From Nitrospira sp. (GTDB lineage Bacteria; Nitrospirota; Nitrospiria; Nitrospirales; Nitrospiraceae): DNA of 53,072 nt. Both the position numbers and the translations under genes were made by a program. Of this stretch, positions 27,085 to 51,571 are shown piece after piece (the first letter of the stretch is position 1; the number at the start of each line of letters is the position of its first letter). The DNA is taken from contig JAOUMR010000013.1 in assembly GCA_029881435.1 (NCBI GenBank), positions 1-53,072 of the forward strand. The letters run 5' to 3'. Below the pieces are notes generated by a model. The model saw only the letters and a program-made list of their open reading frames with translations. It ran no database searches and was not told the DNA's origin.

Positions 27085-28992
27085 TCAGAAGAATGCCTGC
27101 ACACTGAAGAGAACGTCATTGTCGTGGCCGCGATGGTTGTACTCCAGTCGAACGGTCCAATTTCTCGCCACTGTAAAACGTGACCCAACATACCACCGGA
27201 AATCGTCGGACTTGTCACCCAATGGAAATTTTAAATAGGATCCCGTCGCCATCATCTTCCAACGCTCGGTGATATCGGCCAGCATCCCGATAGTTCCACC
27301 ACCACCGATTCGGTGCAGTTCATCATACGCCCCACTGACATTGGCCTCTGCTTCTGCGAAAGCGAACAGAACCTCACGTTTCAACAACCTCAATTCCTTC
27401 GCACCGCCGATCCCACTGTTGAAGAAGCCGTTGCTGCAGAGCTGACAATCGTTATGCCGAATGGTGTTCATCCCAATGTTAAGCTTCCAGGAGGGAGCGT
27501 GAAATACAGCATCGATAGGGGAAAGCGACACCAGGTTTAGAAGTGTCGCGCGCTCCACGCGTGTCTGATCCGCTCTATTGTAGTGCCGTACCGTGATCGA
27601 GGCCATCTCGATCTGAGCATCAGGCGTGTACCCAATCTCCGGATCGAGTAAGTCATGATATCCTCCCCGAAAAGTCGCCTCCTCAAAGGTATCGTTGTTT
27701 CGCCAGCCTCCACCAAGGGCAGCCCTGAACATTTTATGGCCAAGCTCAGGCTGTTTGGCAAAGGGGCGTACGGTAAACTCCTCAGATGGAATCCGGAGTT
27801 GACTCCGAGTCTTCAGCACTTCACGGTTTCGTTCTTTCCACTCCGGCTTCGGAGAATTGGTCGTGTCGATTCGGTACCGCAGATAATCGGATGCGAGATC
27901 GAGGACAAAGGCTTGCCGTGGAGGATTCAGTCCAGCGAACAACGGCGCGTTGAGCTCCGTAAGATCTTGCGTGATTCGATGGGCCAAGTCCCGTTCTTCA
28001 CCAGATAAGAATTCTCGCTTGCGCTTGATAACGGTACTTCGGGAAGGACGATAGGTAATGTTCGATACCAGGTCCGGTTTTGACACAATCAATCGGACAG
28101 TATCAGCCGGAACGGTCCACAACAGAAACTCATCCGTCAAATGCAGGTTGGGATCGGCATAATCGAGCAATGCCAAAATGTGGTAAGAGCAGTTCTCCTT
28201 GAAGAAAAAATAGTCAAAGTAGGCATTCCCCAGCTCCCACGCATGCATCAGAAACCGTCGCAATTGGGTTTCCGTGAGGTTCAGACGATATTCCCAAATA
28301 TCACGATTTTCGATATCGCGGTATTTCTGCACATTCAAGTAATAGGGAATCGTCGAGAAATACCCTTTATAGCTTCCAAAAATGCCACGTATGGGATAGG
28401 CCAGGCCGGCGCCAGGAGGAACATCGGCGGCAAAGTTGATGGTATAGGCAAGGATCCTGGTCTGTTCTGTCTGGCCTTTTTGATCGACACGAAACAGCGT
28501 ATGCCCAAACATCGATGCCGGATTGTTGAGGAACGCCGACGGGAAAATGAGAGAAATAGAATCGGCCTCAAAATCGTTATACCACCGATCAAACCGTTCG
28601 CAGGCAAGCGGAGGCAAGCGGATCGGGTCAAACTTCAGTTGCTCCTTGAGCCACTGATACCGCGCAATAAAGGCACACTGAGCCGGCTGTCGTGACCGGC
28701 CAACTAATTCAGCAGAGAAGAATTGTGCAAGAGTCTCGGCCAGCTCAGCTGCCGGATCCGTCTTTCCGGTCGTAGACATAAAAAACCCGGGATCGTCTTG
28801 TTCACTCTCATACCCTCCAAAGATGCCCTTCTGATAGTGCAGTAACAGATGCCATTCACGCTGGTCCGCGAGTTTCTCTTGCTTCGCTTGATCGATGAGT
28901 TGCGTGAGGTACGGGTCACGATCCGATTGCTGCGCGCTGGAAGAGAGTGGGACGAGCAACGAAACAAGGAAGGCAAGGAGGGAAAGTACCAC
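27085..28992 (-). CDS. DUF4105 outer-envelope protein with predicted C-terminal barrel
   Basis: A 635-residue exported protein: signal peptide LLAFLVSLLVPLSSSAQ, then a DUF4105 (Lnb-like) domain with NNPASMFGHTLFRVD and KENCSYHILALLD, candidate Cys/His catalytic residues. The last 250 residues have alternating strands and a terminal aromatic FSVQAFF, as in outer-membrane beta-barrels. In Lactobacillales an Lnb relative is linked to lipoprotein N-acylation; function in Gram-negatives is not established. The GTG start lacks a clear ribosome-binding site and follows a terminator-like hairpin, so it may have its own promoter. Confidence 0.82.
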   Translation of the reverse strand: MVLSLLAFLVSLLVPLSSSAQQSDRDPYLTQLIDQAKQEKLADQREWHLLLHYQKGIFGGYESEQDDPGFFMSTTGKTDPAAELAETLAQFFSAELVGRSRQPAQCAFIARYQWLKEQLKFDPIRLPPLACERFDRWYNDFEADSISLIFPSAFLNNPASMFGHTLFRVDQKGQTEQTRILAYTINFAADVPPGAGLAYPIRGIFGSYKGYFSTIPYYLNVQKYRDIENRDIWEYRLNLTETQLRRFLMHAWELGNAYFDYFFFKENCSYHILALLDYADPNLHLTDEFLLWTVPADTVRLIVSKPDLVSNITYRPSRSTVIKRKREFLSGEERDLAHRITQDLTELNAPLFAGLNPPRQAFVLDLASDYLRYRIDTTNSPKPEWKERNREVLKTRSQLRIPSEEFTVRPFAKQPELGHKMFRAALGGGWRNNDTFEEATFRGGYHDLLDPEIGYTPDAQIEMASITVRHYNRADQTRVERATLLNLVSLSPIDAVFHAPSWKLNIGMNTIRHNDCQLCSNGFFNSGIGGAKELRLLKREVLFAFAEAEANVSGAYDELHRIGGGGTIGMLADITERWKMMATGSYLKFPLGDKSDDFRWYVGSRFTVARNWTVRLEYNHRGHDNDVLFSVQAFF

Positions 28993-34281: not shown

Positions 34282-37200
34282 TTATTTGACCTTGGATGAC
34301 CCAGTTGCCGATTTCGTTGAAGTGGTCGTGGTATATCCGATGGGAATCTCCGCCACCACATCCAGCTTAGGATCACCATCTTGGTCCTTACCATCGTGCC
34401 CAACACTGTAGAAGACACCTTTGTTCATATTGACCAACATCGGCAACCCCGTGTAGGGGTCATAGAAATTCTGCCCTGCTTTTGCGATACGAGCAAGAAG
34501 ATCGCTATCTGCGGGACCACGCCGCAGCCAAGCTTGTAGACTTGCCAACCGAAGATGGGCATCGGTATCCACCACTAACCCATTGTAAAGATCCCACGGT
34601 GGAAGTGGGTCAAGACCCACAATATTCTCGATTGGATTGATGAGGTAATCCATGAAGCTGGATGCGGGAAAGTGCAGATAGTTCTTCCACTTGGGCAGCG
34701 AGCCATATTGCCCTTCACCGGTTGCTTTGTAAGAGGCTTCATAATACTTCGCATAATCATTGAGCCGGCGCTGCTTGGGCAATGGGAGGTTAGATGCCAC
34801 CGTTATAGAAACCGCCTGTTCTTCCGTTTGCGCTGCCTTCAACTGTTCTTCGTATGTTTTTGAGGCCGTCACAAGCTCGCTTTGCATGGGCCAGCGTAGT
34901 GAAAGTTCTCCTTGGTCGAGCGGTCGAAGAAGCTTGGTCACTCGTCCGAGATGTGTGCCATCGAAGTCTGACTGGACAAGCAGGCCCGAGGCGACGGCGA
35001 TATCGTCATTGATCGCTTGTAGGGCCAACATTTTCACCGGAAGGGTTCTTGCCTGACTCAATACGATTCGCCAGGCTTCCATATCTGTCTCAAGTCGATC
35101 GACTCCAAGATCCAGGCTCTGCACAAATCCATCTGCCACGTGCAGTTGATGCGCAAATGCCATCGCGACACAGGGCGGACTACTGGGCTGACCATAGCCC
35201 CAATCTTCAAACGGCAGTTTTTCCCACTGCCCATACCGATTCAGTGTGAGCTGATGCTCGCGAACCCATTCTTTGACGGTCGCCTGACGAGATATGAATT
35301 GACCGGTCGGGTTTGATCCACGGAACCATCCCCGCATGACATCGGCCGATGCATTCGATTGGTCAACCGTCCCAGACCCCACACCTCCAAAACAGGTTAA
35401 CGCTGCTTTCGCATTTTTGGTATCAGAATTCCGCTCATAGTCCGCCTGTACCGGATCTTGTCCTTCCGCTGCTTCAATCCCGAGCAATAACAGATACCCG
35501 TTGTTCTTGGGCTCCGACAAGGTTCGCTGAGGAGTCGTCGTGAGACTTTGAAAAGCCGGGGACGACGGCTCCTCCATAATGATCCATACCAGCCCGATCG
35601 CTCCAATACCCAAGGCGACAGCCACCACAGATAACACCGCCAGTCCGATGCATGTTGCCACGATCGCACGAGTGGTAGAAAAACACGTGCGGAGAAAGCC
35701 TGCCATCGCAGTGTGGATTGGGCTGAAGAGAGAGCCAAGTTTGCGGTGTGATGTTGCTTCTGCTGCACGTTGCCTGGTCTCCGTCTTTCTGAGATCCAGG
35801 GTCGGCTCAAAGAGAACTTCGACCGCCCTGGCTGCTACACACAGAGGCCGATTCATTTCTTGTGGCTCCGAAACCGGAGGCGCAACCTTGACCATTGGAG
35901 CAGCTTGAGGCTCCTCAACAAATCGAATCTCTTCCCCTACTTTCGGCCATTCCTCTTGATGAGGCACCGGCTCAGGCATCGGCGCTCGCGCCTCAATAAG
36001 AGCCTCTTTCGGCAACTCACTTTTCAGGGGTCGAGTCTCAACCACGTCCGTGTCGACTGATGGTGATACAGAACTTTCAGGCTCTGTCTCCCAGATGTCC
36101 TGTTTCGTGTGCACCGTAGAAGACGGTAACGAGGAAGGAGAAAGAGAGGAGAGTTCACCAGTCGTCTCGCTGGTCACTCCATCAGTAGGTTGAGTAGCAT
36201 TCCAGGGTGTTTCTATAGGACTGTTCTGCGCTGAGGGTTGAAGGTCTGCCAGGATAGGTTCAGCTTCTAATATTAAGAGAGAGTCGATACTCGTGATATG
36301 AACCTCGTCTTGAACCATCGCCTGATCATCGGGGGTAGGTCCTTCACTAGGATGTGACGACGCAACTTCTGTCGTCGGATTCTCCGGTGTCGGCGCCCCC
36401 TCCATTACGGAAGAAGTCGCACGGGAGTCTTGCTGCTCTGGCTCTAAAACGGTTGACTCCTCTTGCGTTGCCGAGGAAGCTTGTCCTAGCTCGGCACCTG
36501 TACGATCGACCTCAAGCAAGATTGGCGTGTCTTGCGGGTGAGGCACTTCAGAATCTTGAACAATCGAAAAGGAATCTGCTTCTTGTGAAGTTGTATTCCA
36601 CTGAGGTGGCATTGGGGGTCGAATTTCACCGACATCAGCGGTATGGTCAACCACAAGCGATAGTGACGCGTCTGGCGATTGAAGCGCTTCGGAATCTTGA
36701 ACAATCGAGAAGGAATCCCTTTCTTGAGAATCCGTAGTGAGCTGAGGCGGAGTTGCGCTCTGGATTGCACCCCTCTCAGCAGCAGTACGATCGTCCTCAG
36801 GAAGATTTGGCGATTCAGGTAGCAGAGACGCTTCAGAATCTCGAACGACCGAGAAGGAATCTGCTTCAGAAGACGTTGTACCGAACGGCGGCGCTTGGTC
36901 ATCGATTACATCAGCTCTTGGCGTCCAGTCTAACGTCGCTTCGTCAACTGATCGATCGACCGTCAAGTCCGTGGATTCCTCAACAGGAGACTCCAATGGC
37001 GCCGGAAGGATCGAGATATCGGACTCCTCCACCTGATCCCATGGCATAGGCGCGATTGAATGTCTGGAAGAAGATTTATCTTTGTGTGTGGGTTGCTGAT
37101 CGCCTTCTCGACTGTCTAGGGATGGGTTTCCTGACGACGACTCCTGGGAAGCGAAAACCGACGGTGCTTCAGGGACGAGTTCCTCAACGCAAGGTGGGTG

Positions 37201-38679
37201 TTCCTCAGGCTGAGCAGCGTTCCCGGAATCGTGACTCTCACGTTTCCATGGACCGGCAAACACAGACTTCCATGAGAATCCTGATTGCGGCGGAGGCTCA
37301 GCGGTTTCATTCAACACTGGGTCTTCTGTTGATGAGTCGCTGGAGCCCGATGGCTGTGCTGGAATCAACTCCCGAGAGTCCACTTCGATAGGTCGCGAAA
37401 AGGACGTCGTCGTGTCTTGTGCCTCCGTTAGCTCGGTGGGCACCGGCTCCGCTAGCGGCAATGTGGAGGAAGAGTCTTCTTCCATCTGAGAGGAAGGTAT
37501 GACCTCGCTATCAGAAGCATGCACTGCCGCACCACCCGGTGGTTCTAGATCCTTCGTTGAGTCCGTAAGTGCCGAAGTCTCTGATGCACCAAGAGCATCT
37601 ATGAGAACCTCTTGCCGAGTCTCTCCCGACACACTCCCCTGGTCCTGGGTTGCAGCTGCATCGCCTCGTGGCACAATCGGATCGGTCTCTCCTTGTGTCA
37701 CAGAGACCTCTCCAACAGCGTCTGGTTGCAATACTTCTGACAGGGCACCTCCAGATGCAATCTGCTCGAAAGGTGTTGTGGCAATTTCCAGCGTGCGAAT
37801 CTCTTCCGACATTTCATCTTTTACATCGCTGATCGCGTCTTTCGTCTGCCGTGGACCATGTGAGTCCATAGGCAGTACATGTTCTTCAGGGGACAGGTCT
37901 TCCTTACTGGAAACATCAGCGGACGCACCTGGAGAGGGAGAAGGTGAAGAGTGAGATAACGTGGTTACGTCATGAGGATTTGTTAGCTCCCATGGCATCG
38001 CCCCATTTGTTGGTTCAGAATGAGCTTGGCCCTCTGAACCCACTGCCGTTTCGTCAGCTGTGGAAGTGTAGATCGATTCTGTGTTTTCACTCGATTGACG
38101 GGCCAGTAGTTCGCCGGTCTGCGCATCAAAGAATGAGGCCAGCCGGAAGGCCACAGGACTCGCCGGAGCGAGATCTCGAATTTTCGCGTAGAGCTGAGCG
38201 GCACGCTGAGGGTTCTCAGCGTCTGGATCCTCGATCAAGATATCGATGGCCTTGCCGTATTCGGCTGCGGCTTCAAGAGCATCTCCCTTCTCCTGATAGA
38301 TCGATCCAAGTTTTTCCAAGAATGGAACACACCGCTGGGCAGTTGCTAAGTATTCACGGAGTAAAGATTCCGCAAGCCAATAGTCTTGACGCTGAAAGGC
38401 TTCGTCGATAAGCGAGTCAAACGCATGCTTTGCTGGGAGGAGACTCCCAAGACGAAGGTGTAATGTGGCGAACAACCTCCGTGCTTCCATGTTATTGGGG
38501 TCAAGCGCGAGTAATTCCTTGAGCGCGGCTGATGATCGCCCATACTTGCCCGCATTCATCTGTGTGATGGCTTCCTCAAGCAGAGCAGTCTTCCTGCTGT
38601 AGCCAACCACACCACGCTTGTGACTACGGATAGTCTGAGTTTTATCTGATTTTACGGGGGGTTTCTTATTCCAGCGCAC
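34282..38679 (-). CDS. Giant TPR/disordered/transmembrane protein with EF-hand-like C-terminus
   Basis: A 1465-residue protein. Residues about 25-200 contain tetratricopeptide-like helices (AITQMNAGKYGRSSAALKEL, DALEAAAEYGKAIDIL). Residues about 205-995 are acidic, Ser/Pro/Glu-rich and disordered, with three 47-48-residue repeats. One membrane helix lies about 1000-1033 (IVATCIGLAVLSVVAVALGI). The last 430 residues look folded and end with YSVGHDGKDQDGDPKLD, a calcium-loop-like motif reminiscent of GspG-type pseudopilin ends. This gives a cytoplasmic TPR domain, a long linker and a periplasmic domain. FimV-like pilus hub proteins share the style but not the order. The next genes are a small protein and a secretin, so an envelope-assembly role is inferred. 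Confidence 0.8.
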   Translation of the reverse strand: MRWNKKPPVKSDKTQTIRSHKRGVVGYSRKTALLEEAITQMNAGKYGRSSAALKELLALDPNNMEARRLFATLHLRLGSLLPAKHAFDSLIDEAFQRQDYWLAESLLREYLATAQRCVPFLEKLGSIYQEKGDALEAAAEYGKAIDILIEDPDAENPQRAAQLYAKIRDLAPASPVAFRLASFFDAQTGELLARQSSENTESIYTSTADETAVGSEGQAHSEPTNGAMPWELTNPHDVTTLSHSSPSPSPGASADVSSKEDLSPEEHVLPMDSHGPRQTKDAISDVKDEMSEEIRTLEIATTPFEQIASGGALSEVLQPDAVGEVSVTQGETDPIVPRGDAAATQDQGSVSGETRQEVLIDALGASETSALTDSTKDLEPPGGAAVHASDSEVIPSSQMEEDSSSTLPLAEPVPTELTEAQDTTTSFSRPIEVDSRELIPAQPSGSSDSSTEDPVLNETAEPPPQSGFSWKSVFAGPWKRESHDSGNAAQPEEHPPCVEELVPEAPSVFASQESSSGNPSLDSREGDQQPTHKDKSSSRHSIAPMPWDQVEESDISILPAPLESPVEESTDLTVDRSVDEATLDWTPRADVIDDQAPPFGTTSSEADSFSVVRDSEASLLPESPNLPEDDRTAAERGAIQSATPPQLTTDSQERDSFSIVQDSEALQSPDASLSLVVDHTADVGEIRPPMPPQWNTTSQEADSFSIVQDSEVPHPQDTPILLEVDRTGAELGQASSATQEESTVLEPEQQDSRATSSVMEGAPTPENPTTEVASSHPSEGPTPDDQAMVQDEVHITSIDSLLILEAEPILADLQPSAQNSPIETPWNATQPTDGVTSETTGELSSLSPSSLPSSTVHTKQDIWETEPESSVSPSVDTDVVETRPLKSELPKEALIEARAPMPEPVPHQEEWPKVGEEIRFVEEPQAAPMVKVAPPVSEPQEMNRPLCVAARAVEVLFEPTLDLRKTETRQRAAEATSHRKLGSLFSPIHTAMAGFLRTCFSTTRAIVATCIGLAVLSVVAVALGIGAIGLVWIIMEEPSSPAFQSLTTTPQRTLSEPKNNGYLLLLGIEAAEGQDPVQADYERNSDTKNAKAALTCFGGVGSGTVDQSNASADVMRGWFRGSNPTGQFISRQATVKEWVREHQLTLNRYGQWEKLPFEDWGYGQPSSPPCVAMAFAHQLHVADGFVQSLDLGVDRLETDMEAWRIVLSQARTLPVKMLALQAINDDIAVASGLLVQSDFDGTHLGRVTKLLRPLDQGELSLRWPMQSELVTASKTYEEQLKAAQTEEQAVSITVASNLPLPKQRRLNDYAKYYEASYKATGEGQYGSLPKWKNYLHFPASSFMDYLINPIENIVGLDPLPPWDLYNGLVVDTDAHLRLASLQAWLRRGPADSDLLARIAKAGQNFYDPYTGLPMLVNMNKGVFYSVGHDGKDQDGDPKLDVVAEIPIGYTTTTSTKSATGSSKVK
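36490..36900 (-). repeat. Three ~47-residue tandem repeats within the giant protein gene
   Basis: The motif DSFS(V/I)V(R/Q)DSE recurs at about 36551, 36692 and 36836, spaced 141 and 144 bases. The DNA is conserved best in GAATC-TGAACAATCGA blocks. Each unit contains an acidic DR-T-A segment and a Pro-Pro-Q/M stretch. The period is in frame, so copy number could change length without breaking the protein. Confidence 0.75.
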
Positions 38680-39030: not shown

Positions 39031-39414
39031 CTACAAACAGACTCGGTAGTGTTCACACTGCTCAGACGTCAAACGTGAACCGATTTCAAACACATACCCA
39101 GGGAGAAGCGATTCCTCAGACCCATGAAGCGGCTTCATCAAGATTCTTCCACAACGAAGGCAATGTTGCTCCCCTTCCCATGAGGCATCACCGACAAGGT
39201 GCTGAATGGGTATGGGAGATTCATCAGGCAGATCAGGCATGAGGACACGACGCACCTCACCTAGAAGGCGCCAGGCATGATCTGGTGAGAGTATCTCTGG
39301 GCCATCCAACACGAGGACAAGCAAGCCTAGGGCCCGCATGGGATCTCCCTTCGCCTCAGTGAGCAGTTGTTGAGAGAAAACCAGAACCTTATCTTGTATG
39401 AGCTTGGGATCCAT
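39031..39414 (-). CDS. Small protein of unknown function next to the secretin gene
   Basis: A 127-residue soluble protein. The N-terminal half is helical (LIQDKVLVFSQQLLTEAKGD, HAWRLLGEVRRVL). The second half has a CxxC (CLRCGR near residue 86) and two late cysteines (QCEHYRVC), which could bind one zinc. No family recognised. It is divergent from the secretin gene, sharing the 246-base region at 39415-39660. Its codon use looks ordinary for the window. It may be regulated together with the secretin. Confidence 0.6.
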   Translation of the reverse strand: MDPKLIQDKVLVFSQQLLTEAKGDPMRALGLLVLVLDGPEILSPDHAWRLLGEVRRVLMPDLPDESPIPIQHLVGDASWEGEQHCLRCGRILMKPLHGSEESLLPGYVFEIGSRLTSEQCEHYRVCL

Positions 39415-39660: not shown

Positions 39661-41244
39661 GTGCAAAACCCCTCAGGCTTCAGATCCTCATCGAAAACCC
39701 ACAGACGCCTCCGAGCCTGCTTAGCTTGGCTATTCATACTCACGTTCGCCTTGTCTTCTAACGGTTTGTCACAGGTCTCGGCAGCTCAACCAGCTAAAGT
39801 GGCACTCGATTTCAACGACGTCGAGATCCCCGTTTTCGTACGCTTTATTAGCGAGCTTACCGGGAAAAATTTCGTCTTGGATGAAACGATTAAGAAACAA
39901 GGTGGGAAGATCTCGGTCTTCTCTCCGAGCAAGGTTTCGTCGGAGCAGGCTTTCAAGATGTTCGTGGCCGCATTAGAAGCAGCTCGGATGGCCGTGGTCC
40001 CAAAAGGAGATAATCTTTACCAAGTCGTACCGATGGGTGATCTTCCTCCTGAGCGTGGCGTATTTGTCTATAAACTCAAGCACGCTAATGCGACGGATCT
40101 GGCCGCCGTACTGACCAATCTGGTGGCGCGTTCACAAACCGTGGCACAGATCACTCCTGGCACTCGTCCTCCGATCAGACCGTTGACGGAATTTGAAGCG
40201 CCGGTTCAGGTATTTGCCGATAAGGCAACCAACTCTATCGTCATCAGTTCGACCAAAGTCGCCTGGAACCACCTCCGATCAGTGATTCATGATCTAGATA
40301 TCCGGCGCAAGCAGGTCTTTGTGGAAGCCGTCATCCTGGAAGTTCAAGTTGACCGCTTGCGACAAATCGGCACTGACCCCACTCAGGTTCTTGGTGCAGG
40401 AAAGTCTGGATTTTTGCAGGTGCTCGGCGGATTCAACAGAGCGCCGGAAGATCTCGCCACTGTAGCGCAGGCGATCAGTGGCGTCGCTGCGGGTGGAGCA
40501 ACCGGTGGGGCCGTCACCGTCTTGAACACAGTCAACGTTCGTGCCTTTATGAACTTACTGATGAACCTCACCGATACGAACGTCCTTTCTACGCCCCAGG
40601 TCCTTGCTGCAGACAATCAAAAGGCCAAAATCGTCGTCGGTGAAAATCGACCATTCCCAACTGGACAAGCTCAAGGGATCACTGGTGGAACGCTGGTCAC
40701 GATCGAACGGAAAGACGTCGGAGTCACATTAGAGTTAACCCCCCAGGTCCTTGAAGATGACTTGATTCGCCTCGAGATCAAGCAAGAGATCACGGCCATC
40801 GCAGAAAATGTGGCACAAACCATTGGATCCGGGACTGCAAGCATCCCGGTCGGCCCCACAACCACGAAGCGATCGATGGAAACAACCACAGTTGCGCAAG
40901 ACAAACAGACCCTCGTGGTTGGAGGGTTAGTCCGCGACAATATCACCATCAGCGAGAGAAAGGTTCCTCTTCTGGGAGATATTCCGTGGCTCGGGTGGTT
41001 GTTCAAAACTCAGAACCGTCAGATTGAGAAGCTAAACCTTCTTGTGTTTCTCACTCCACATCTCGTTCGAGACGATGCAGATATGATCGAGTTGAACGCC
41101 AGAAAAGCAAGAGATGTCAATTCGCTACAGCGAGACAATCGCATCGAGGAACCTACAAAACTTAAACAGGATGTGCTCGAGCGGTTAGAACTCCCCTCGA
41201 CCGTTCCTCCTTCTTTATCTGAAGAAACCATCGTCAAGCCGTAA
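39661..41244 (+). CDS. Short secretin of the type II secretion/type IV pilus family
   Basis: A 527-residue secretin from a GTG start, with a signal peptide (LRACLAWLFILTFALSSNGLS). After it comes an N0-like domain (LDFNDVEIPVFVRFISELTGKNFVLD), one N1-type ring-building domain (VYKLKHANATDLAAVL, TNSIVISSTKVAWNHLRSVI), and the secretin barrel with VEAVILEVQ and the closing VVGGLVRDN, PLLGDIPWLGWLF. It forms the outer-membrane pore for pili or secreted proteins. It has fewer N-domains than a full GspD, closer to a minimal secretin. PilC, PilS and PilR are encoded 9 kb away, so pilus use is likely. Plus orientation, isolated from other secretion genes. Confidence 0.88.
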   Translation: MQNPSGFRSSSKTHRRLRACLAWLFILTFALSSNGLSQVSAAQPAKVALDFNDVEIPVFVRFISELTGKNFVLDETIKKQGGKISVFSPSKVSSEQAFKMFVAALEAARMAVVPKGDNLYQVVPMGDLPPERGVFVYKLKHANATDLAAVLTNLVARSQTVAQITPGTRPPIRPLTEFEAPVQVFADKATNSIVISSTKVAWNHLRSVIHDLDIRRKQVFVEAVILEVQVDRLRQIGTDPTQVLGAGKSGFLQVLGGFNRAPEDLATVAQAISGVAAGGATGGAVTVLNTVNVRAFMNLLMNLTDTNVLSTPQVLAADNQKAKIVVGENRPFPTGQAQGITGGTLVTIERKDVGVTLELTPQVLEDDLIRLEIKQEITAIAENVAQTIGSGTASIPVGPTTTKRSMETTTVAQDKQTLVVGGLVRDNITISERKVPLLGDIPWLGWLFKTQNRQIEKLNLLVFLTPHLVRDDADMIELNARKARDVNSLQRDNRIEEPTKLKQDVLERLELPSTVPPSLSEETIVKP

Positions 41245-41465
41245 GGATAGTGATCCTCGCCCCCCGGCTGATGTACTAGATCGTTTCTCCGCAGCCCCCT
41301 CAACTACGGAATCCAGAAATACCCCGGTCAGAATCTCCCAAGGCCTCTAATTTCCATCCGTAATTCATCAAACTGACAAGATTTGGTATATCGCTGGCCC
41401 CTCCTCTGAGGAATGGCCCTATGCTCGTCACCTGGATACACTGCGGGTCCATGGAGGGCCTAAGA

Positions 41466-41819
41466 ATGGTAGACACAACGGTAAACTGGCGGATCCATCA
41501 TCGGCTTTCGGTTGCCTATCCAGTAATATTTGGAGGTGCCCCGTTTGTAGGTGAAGGGGTGGTCTCTAATCTTTCCCTTTCCGGCTGCTCCGTCACCTGC
41601 GAGCGAACAGTCCTCACAGGAAGTTATGTTAAACTGAGCGTCCTGCTGCCTGATCCCACCTCTTCTCTATTCATCGAGTTGGCGAAAATCCGTTGGGTTT
41701 GCAAAAACACGTTCGGCGTTGAGTTCATTCGCCTACCGACGATCACCCGGCACCGGCTGGACCGAGTAGTGTCTCAGGAGCTGGCTCAGGATTTAGAGCT
41801 CATCCCAGCGTTGATCTGA
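41466..41819 (+). CDS. PilZ-domain protein (probable c-di-GMP receptor)
   Basis: A 117-residue single PilZ domain: RIHHRLSVAYPVIFGG (the position of the RxxxR motif, here RIHHR), then NLSLSGCSVTCER (D/NxSxxG), and a GVEFIRL strand. PilZ domains bind cyclic di-GMP and often control pili, motility or secretion. I choose the ATG at 41466 because of the closely placed GGAGGG; an upstream ATG at 41421 gives 15 extra residues. It follows the secretin gene, supporting a role in pilus or secretion control. Confidence 0.82.
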   Translation: MVDTTVNWRIHHRLSVAYPVIFGGAPFVGEGVVSNLSLSGCSVTCERTVLTGSYVKLSVLLPDPTSSLFIELAKIRWVCKNTFGVEFIRLPTITRHRLDRVVSQELAQDLELIPALI

Positions 41820-51118: not shown

Positions 51119-51571
51119 TCAGTGGGCGTAGGCCGATACATTGGCGACGGGAAAGGCCGTCATGGCCGAGTCGTTGGTCGTGGTCACGGTGACGGTCGCC
51201 GCGCCAGGAGCAGCGGTAAAGGCAATCTGGAAGGTGGCGGCGATGGTGGTCACCAGCGAGGCGCCGGTCAGATTCGTGCCGGTCAAGGAGACATTGACGG
51301 AGGCTCCAGCATTACCCGTGTTCGGGGTGAAGGCAGTAATCGTCGGCGCGCCGACCCCACCGGTGTTGCGCGTGATGGAGAGCAGATTGCCGACGGCATC
51401 GTAGGTGTACGTCGTTACATTCCCCTGCCCGTCGGTCACTTGCGACAGCCGGCCCAGGTCGTCGTAGATGTATTGGACCTGATCGGCGATTGCCGACATC
51501 GGCGTCAACACACCGAGCAGCAGCACACAGATCAGGACCGACCGCACTTTTGAGATCGCCATCTGCATCAT
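51119..51571 (-). CDS. Secreted mini-RHS/YD-repeat protein with IPT/TIG-like domain
   Basis: A 150-residue exported protein. The signal peptide is VRSVLICVLLLGVLTPMSAIA. Two YD-type repeats follow (YIYDDLGRLSQVTDGQGN and YTYDAVGNLLSITRN), then an IPT/TIG-like stretch (APTITAFTPNTGNAGASVNV). RHS proteins are usually over 1000 residues and surround toxins or adhesins; this is a stub with one IPT-like module. It could be the remains of an RHS gene or a genuine short surface protein. It ends 20 bases from the pilC promoter. Confidence 0.75.
   Translation of the reverse strand: MMQMAISKVRSVLICVLLLGVLTPMSAIADQVQYIYDDLGRLSQVTDGQGNVTTYTYDAVGNLLSITRNTGGVGAPTITAFTPNTGNAGASVNVSLTGTNLTGASLVTTIAATFQIAFTAAPGAATVTVTTTNDSAMTAFPVANVSAYAH

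Follow-up and report, generated by a model that had tools for sequence, protein, structure and literature searches.

The window, a stretch of 53,072 nucleotides, corresponds to contig C30 in a genome that is 99.85% complete and has Nitrospira as its named relatives, including N. moscoviensis and Ca. N. defluvii. ORF reading of the window gives one unbroken frame of 1465 codons for the gene studied here, which is divergent from a secretin gene and lies near a gene for a PilZ-domain protein (Table 1); an Rfam scan of the window gave no match. Across 46 aligned orthologues the start site is agreed (column occupancy of 0.94 at residues 1-20), and two conserved ends surround a variable middle. Identity per 20 residues is 61-93% for residues 21-200 and mostly 40-85% in the C-terminal domain, whereas it is mostly 16-30% in the linker between them (about 20-25% overall), with a few bright spots. 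These results bear out the description in the first-pass annotation of a 1465-residue protein with TPR, acidic and membrane parts.

Several Pfam TPR models match residues 32-147 with E values of 6e-4 to 4e-3, each under its own gathering score, and the high identity of residues 21-200 among the orthologues indicates that the TPR block is a real conserved domain. Hydropathy reaches its maximum over residues 1005-1023 (score of 2.68). Lysine and arginine are commoner on the N-terminal side of this helix, a charge bias that suggests an N-in/C-out topology, and the TPR block would then sit in the cytoplasm. The part that follows the helix was modelled with AlphaFold2 and gave a pLDDT of 80.6 and a pTM of 0.85; the single membrane helix and folded C-terminal domain that the first-pass annotation described are both upheld.

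The linker (785 residues) consists of 19% D/E and 5% K/R and has a net charge of -108. About 800 disordered acidic residues had been proposed here; the acidic stretch is confirmed, and its composition and variability suggest that it is disordered. The in-frame repeats that had been reported in it were located as three copies of about 106 nt each, at spacings of 141 and 144 nt (47 and 48 codons). Most orthologues lack most of this segment, which marks the repeats as a recent expansion rather than a defining feature. The conserved motif of the linker is APMPW[DE]Q[VI]xE, which forms two bright spots in the protein from the window and has extra copies in other species. Its core, [PGAS]MPW[DE], occurs 77 times in the 46 orthologue linkers compared to 0.065 expected by shuffling. 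Because the orthologues share kinship, the strongest evidence for the motif is its repetition inside single proteins, where a linker carries up to four copies. Another motif class, FSW[EK]S[VIL]F, was found in 38 of the 46 orthologues. The DNA pattern of APMPWDQVEE had its sole match in its own genome in the gene itself and only a few scattered matches in 23 relatives; thus, no second motif-bearing protein was found.

Table 1. Features of the gene, its neighbours and a TPR relative encoded in the same genome (positions are those of the window unless a locus is given)
Feature	Residues	Position	Strand	Basis or remark
Whole gene: TPR, acidic linker, membrane helix, C-terminal domain	1-1465	34282..38679	(-)	1465 aa, GTG start
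TPR block	27-200	38080..38601	(-)	Sub-threshold Pfam TPR; 61-93% column identity
Acidic linker of low conservation	201-985	35725..38079	(-)	Composition, alignment
Linker motif copy GAMPWELTNP	226-235	37975..38004	(-)	Linker motif analysis
Linker motif GFSWKSVF	467-474	37258..37281	(-)	FSW[EK]S[VIL]F class
Linker motif APMPWDQVEE	543-552	37024..37053	(-)	Linker motif analysis
Three in-frame linker repeats of 47-48 codons		36490..36880	(-)	DNA repeat comparison
Membrane helix	~1005-1031	35587..35667	(-)	Hydropathy; charge bias
C-terminal domain, mostly helical	1041-1452	34324..35559	(-)	Profiles, alignment, AlphaFold2
GspG-like end module (predicted), two helices and three short strands	1356-1447	34339..34614	(-)	Models, VIA-align
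Loop DGKDQDGDPKLD	1429-1440	34360..34395	(-)	S-[LV]-G-x-D-x10-D spacing
Divergent neighbour, T2SS-type secretin (GspD-like)		39661..41244	(+)	NCBIfam/Pfam, linkage
PilZ-domain protein		41421..41819	(+)	Pfam
595-aa TPR protein, SgmX-like N-terminus, next to lptF/lptG		L147:6906-8693 (contig C173)		Same genome

Searches of the whole protein with Pfam and NCBIfam, and of the C-terminal domain alone with Pfam, returned just weak TPR matches, and a PDB sequence search with the C-terminal domain profile returned no match. With the whole-domain model, Foldseek found nothing at E <= 0.001, and the best VIA-align row (Z of 6.6) was to helical repeats, with no row standing out. Neither Pfam nor NCBIfam has a name for the family that the C-terminal domain forms, and the protein is undescribed, in agreement with the earlier statement that no known family is recognised.

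The tail of this domain (about 92 folded residues), modelled alone, forms two helices followed by three short strands (pLDDT of 74), which agrees with the whole-domain model. VIA-align of the tail model placed GspG structures in all of its top three rows (3g20, Z of 7.2, 3.3 Å over 84 residues; 3fu1, Z of 6.5, 2.4 Å over 75 residues; 4lw9, Z of 6.1) and the next row at 4.6, with Z values of 6-7 being in the range that the tool itself calls common. By Foldseek the best pseudopilin had an E value of 3.4, comparison of the tail with 18 Nitrospira GspG sequences by hhalign aligned the correct loop at a probability of 0.5%, and a PDB search with the tail profile gave chance matches only. Nitrospira GspG has the spacing S-L-G-x-D-x10-D, as does the tail loop. 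PulG has the same order of elements and a calcium site around the b1/b2 and b2/b3 loops (PMC6692295); the predicted tail runs helix-helix-b1-b2-loop-b3, with the Asp loop where the major pseudopilin has its calcium loop. The first-pass annotation had the protein ending in DGKDQDGDPKLD, as a calcium-loop-like tail. However, 25 residues come after this loop, and it is not an EF-hand, since DxDxDG is not conserved among the orthologues (which carry, for example, DGKDQDADPQSD and DLKDNEAQDRFD) and only D1429, D1432 and D1440, at positions 1, 4 and 12, are invariant in 42 sequences. GspG-like describes the loop better, and it may bind calcium. In contrast to GspG, PulG and EpsG, the protein has no prepilin signal and no N-terminal pilin helix, its module stands at the end of a 425-residue domain, and the sequence similarity is not significant. 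Membership among the pseudopilins was rejected because over 300 residues separate the membrane helix from the tail module that follows it, and the N-terminus is a TPR block. Taken together, these results suggest that the tail likely resembles GspG in shape, while the resemblance is unproven as a sign of common ancestry or function. Separately, a T2SSG-like match of 45-67 bits was obtained for open frames of 880-1093 aa in some Nitrospiraceae genomes (G006:C9:52065, G304:C1:2615973, G381:C30:16509 and G231:C1:403171), possibly another pseudopilin-like domain within a big protein.

The neighbouring secretin reaches 344 bits with the GspD model (cut-off of 351) and 159 bits with the PilQ model (cut-off of 284), and by these scores it is a T2SS-type GspD and not a pilus PilQ. 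Four secretins are encoded in the source genome. Its AMIN-domain PilQ lies on contig C121, and its T2SS operon, on contig C57, shows no gspD before the contig end. Where the secretin orthologue is not beside the target gene, it was found 3.5-9 kb from gspG in six genomes; this secretin gene is an orphan, apparently displaced from the T2SS operon in several genera, and lies by gspG in others. Linkage within 10 kb of the target was found in 43 of 47 genomes in genus g1, 20 of 23 in g14, 5 of 6 in g17 and the single genome in g19 (69/77 in total), but in none of 26 in g12, the genus of N. defluvii, and it is also absent in several other genera, which argues that the secretin is not an obligate partner. 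The secretin and PilZ genes had been read as a pilus or secretion context: the envelope-machine context stands, the pilus-type secretin does not. Neither consistently unrelated contexts nor a known enzymatic domain, which the first-pass annotation had named as counter-evidence, was found. Beside the secretin, a 127-aa protein without a Pfam or NCBIfam match (39031-39414) is conserved in many Nitrospira; a periplasmic Lnb_N-domain protein with DUF7840 and DUF7843 (27085-28992) lies downstream of the target family-wide; and a short ORF with an RHS-repeat match (51119-51571) lies near a pilC gene.

We sampled 147 Nitrospiraceae genomes, 109 of them of good quality, and the form of the protein with TPR block and linker (long form) is present in 94 of these 109. 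Among the good genomes, gspG occurs in 85 of the 94 with the long form compared to 3 of the 15 without it, and AMIN-PilQ in 93 of 94 compared to 7 of 15; common descent, together with small genomes lacking all three genes, inflates both contrasts. This co-occurrence therefore makes both the type IV pilus (T4P) and the T2SS candidates and does not choose between them. One explanation is a dedicated T2SS factor, with a tail that binds pseudopilus or secretin parts and a TPR block that reaches the cytoplasmic platform, acting in T2SS assembly or regulation only. The adjoining gspD-type secretin in g1, g14, g17 and g19, the GspG-like tail and the frequency of gspG in long-form genomes speak for it. 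However, nine good genomes carry the long form without gspG, including G134 and G258 at 99-100% completeness, and the secretin linkage is missing in g12, so that we consider such a restricted role unlikely.

The C-terminal domain is present in 12 of 135 genera of a phylum-wide sample (295 genomes), all but one in Nitrospiraceae. Relatives beyond the phylum were covered by a single scan of genome contigs, whose reach extends to close relatives only. The domain occurs in two architectures, the long form and a short form of 470-540 aa with a single N-terminal membrane helix but neither TPR block nor linker. The short form is homologous across the whole domain (profile E values of 1e-92 to 1e-144 in Nitrospiraceae), and hhalign aligned a distant short relative from another family of the phylum at a probability of 96.8%, with 358 columns covered; a plasmid search for this relative found none. 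In a tree of 22 domains, a single branch (99/99; 200/200 bootstrap trees) separated all long forms from the short forms and distant relatives. If the root is placed among the short forms, one fusion to the TPR-linker part, early in the family, gave rise to the long form.

At the Nitrospiraceae loci examined, the short form is divergent to the B12-uptake genes btuF, btuC, btuD and a TonB receptor gene, whose domains were verified in one locus. Two cobalamin riboswitches of 79-105 bits were found in each of the eight short-form loci scanned (L085:9503-9706, also L107, L109, L113, L138, L139, L142 and L144), and the short paralogue keeps a conserved place beside them. A further explanation is a signalling or sensing protein, in which the periplasmic domain binds a ligand and thereby alters what the TPR block and linker bind, the PilZ neighbour and the GGDEF and HDOD proteins found as neighbours in other lineages being the output. 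The place of the short paralogue by the B12-uptake genes and these neighbours speak for it. The invariant polar and aromatic residues of the domain, which include FEDWGYG, RWP and DPxT, suggest a binding site as well. However, the riboswitches precede the uptake genes and face away from the gene of the paralogue, no B12 genes lie near the long form, and Foldseek and VIA-align of the whole-domain model found no known ligand-binding fold; we regard a sensing role as doubtful. A peptidoglycan or envelope-biogenesis scaffold with no tie to secretion or pili would fit the AIM24, M48 peptidase and Lnb-like genes, which stay linked to the target even where the secretin is not. However, these genes lie past other genes and have mostly general or unknown roles, and the analysis gave no domain link; this reading is improbable.

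Nitrospira, with the comammox strains among them, are major nitrite oxidisers that live in biofilms and flocs. In our literature search, no paper dealt with the organisation of secretion or pili in these bacteria. Since the long form is near-universal in good Nitrospiraceae genomes and keeps its TPR block and C-terminal domain while the linker varies, the protein is a strong candidate for a core organiser of the envelope. We propose, at a probability of about 40%, that it is an inner-membrane scaffold or hub that resembles FimV/HubP in mirror topology without belonging to the FimV family. Such a hub would couple the cytoplasm with the periplasm: the N-terminal TPR block would dock a cytoplasmic client, the acidic linker would provide reach, the APMPW[DE]Q[VI]xE motifs and one FSWxSVF motif may serve as further docking sites, and the single helix would anchor it in the membrane. 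The linker motifs are thereby candidate binding sites that can be tested directly, and the machine served would be the T2SS or the T4P. The GGDEF and HDOD neighbours in other lineages also count in favour of the hub. Counted against it are the secretin linkage missing in g12 and several other genera, the nine good genomes that carry the long form without gspG, and the short paralogue beside the B12-uptake genes, which a T2SS or T4P role leaves unaccounted for. It is a long shot that the tail acts as a tethered, non-polymerising pseudopilin mimic at the periplasmic tip of the TPR hub and so connects the T2SS or T4P with clients in the cytoplasm; if true, this coupling would be a device not known in other bacteria.

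Among known TPR proteins, a PrsT/PEP-CTERM lipoprotein was rejected (TIGR02917, 21.3 bits compared to a cut-off of 312.2). The TPR block recurs in a 595-aa protein encoded in the same genome (residues 248-403 of that protein, 34% identity over 156 residues), and the N-terminus of this relative matches the SgmX model at 120 bits (cut-off of 1800). Most Nitrospiraceae genomes searched contain TPR relatives of about 565-840 aa. SgmX is a TPR protein of Myxococcus xanthus that promotes T4P formation and is cytoplasmic, without a membrane helix (PMC7519303), unlike the protein described here, which had no match to NF052243 (NCBIfam) at E <= 0.1 and is not an SgmX member. The 595-aa relative is thus a weak pointer to pili.

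In FimV/HubP proteins, a LysM part lies in the periplasm and is joined by one helix to a long acidic stretch in the cytoplasm, after which a TPR at the C-terminus binds clients; the TPR and acidic stretch gather clients and the periplasmic domain anchors, and the acidic stretch of HubP contains repeats (PMC12918733). The protein likewise has a long, acidic and poorly conserved stretch, which the charge bias at the helix suggests to be cytoplasmic, with the TPR block at its distal end and, on the other side, one helix and a folded periplasmic part, so that helix, acidic stretch and TPR come in the same order outward from the membrane. In contrast, its chain is reversed, with the TPR block N-terminal and the periplasmic part C-terminal, and the periplasmic domain is a different one. 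No LysM match at E <= 0.1 (Pfam and NCBIfam, whole protein) and no match to a FimV model was found, and together with the N-terminal TPR block this rejects FimV/HubP membership. The FimV-like hub of new type in the first-pass annotation therefore survives in its ingredients and their mirrored order and not as a FimV member. If the protein proves to be a hub, FimV/HubP would have a counterpart of mirror topology outside the Proteobacteria.
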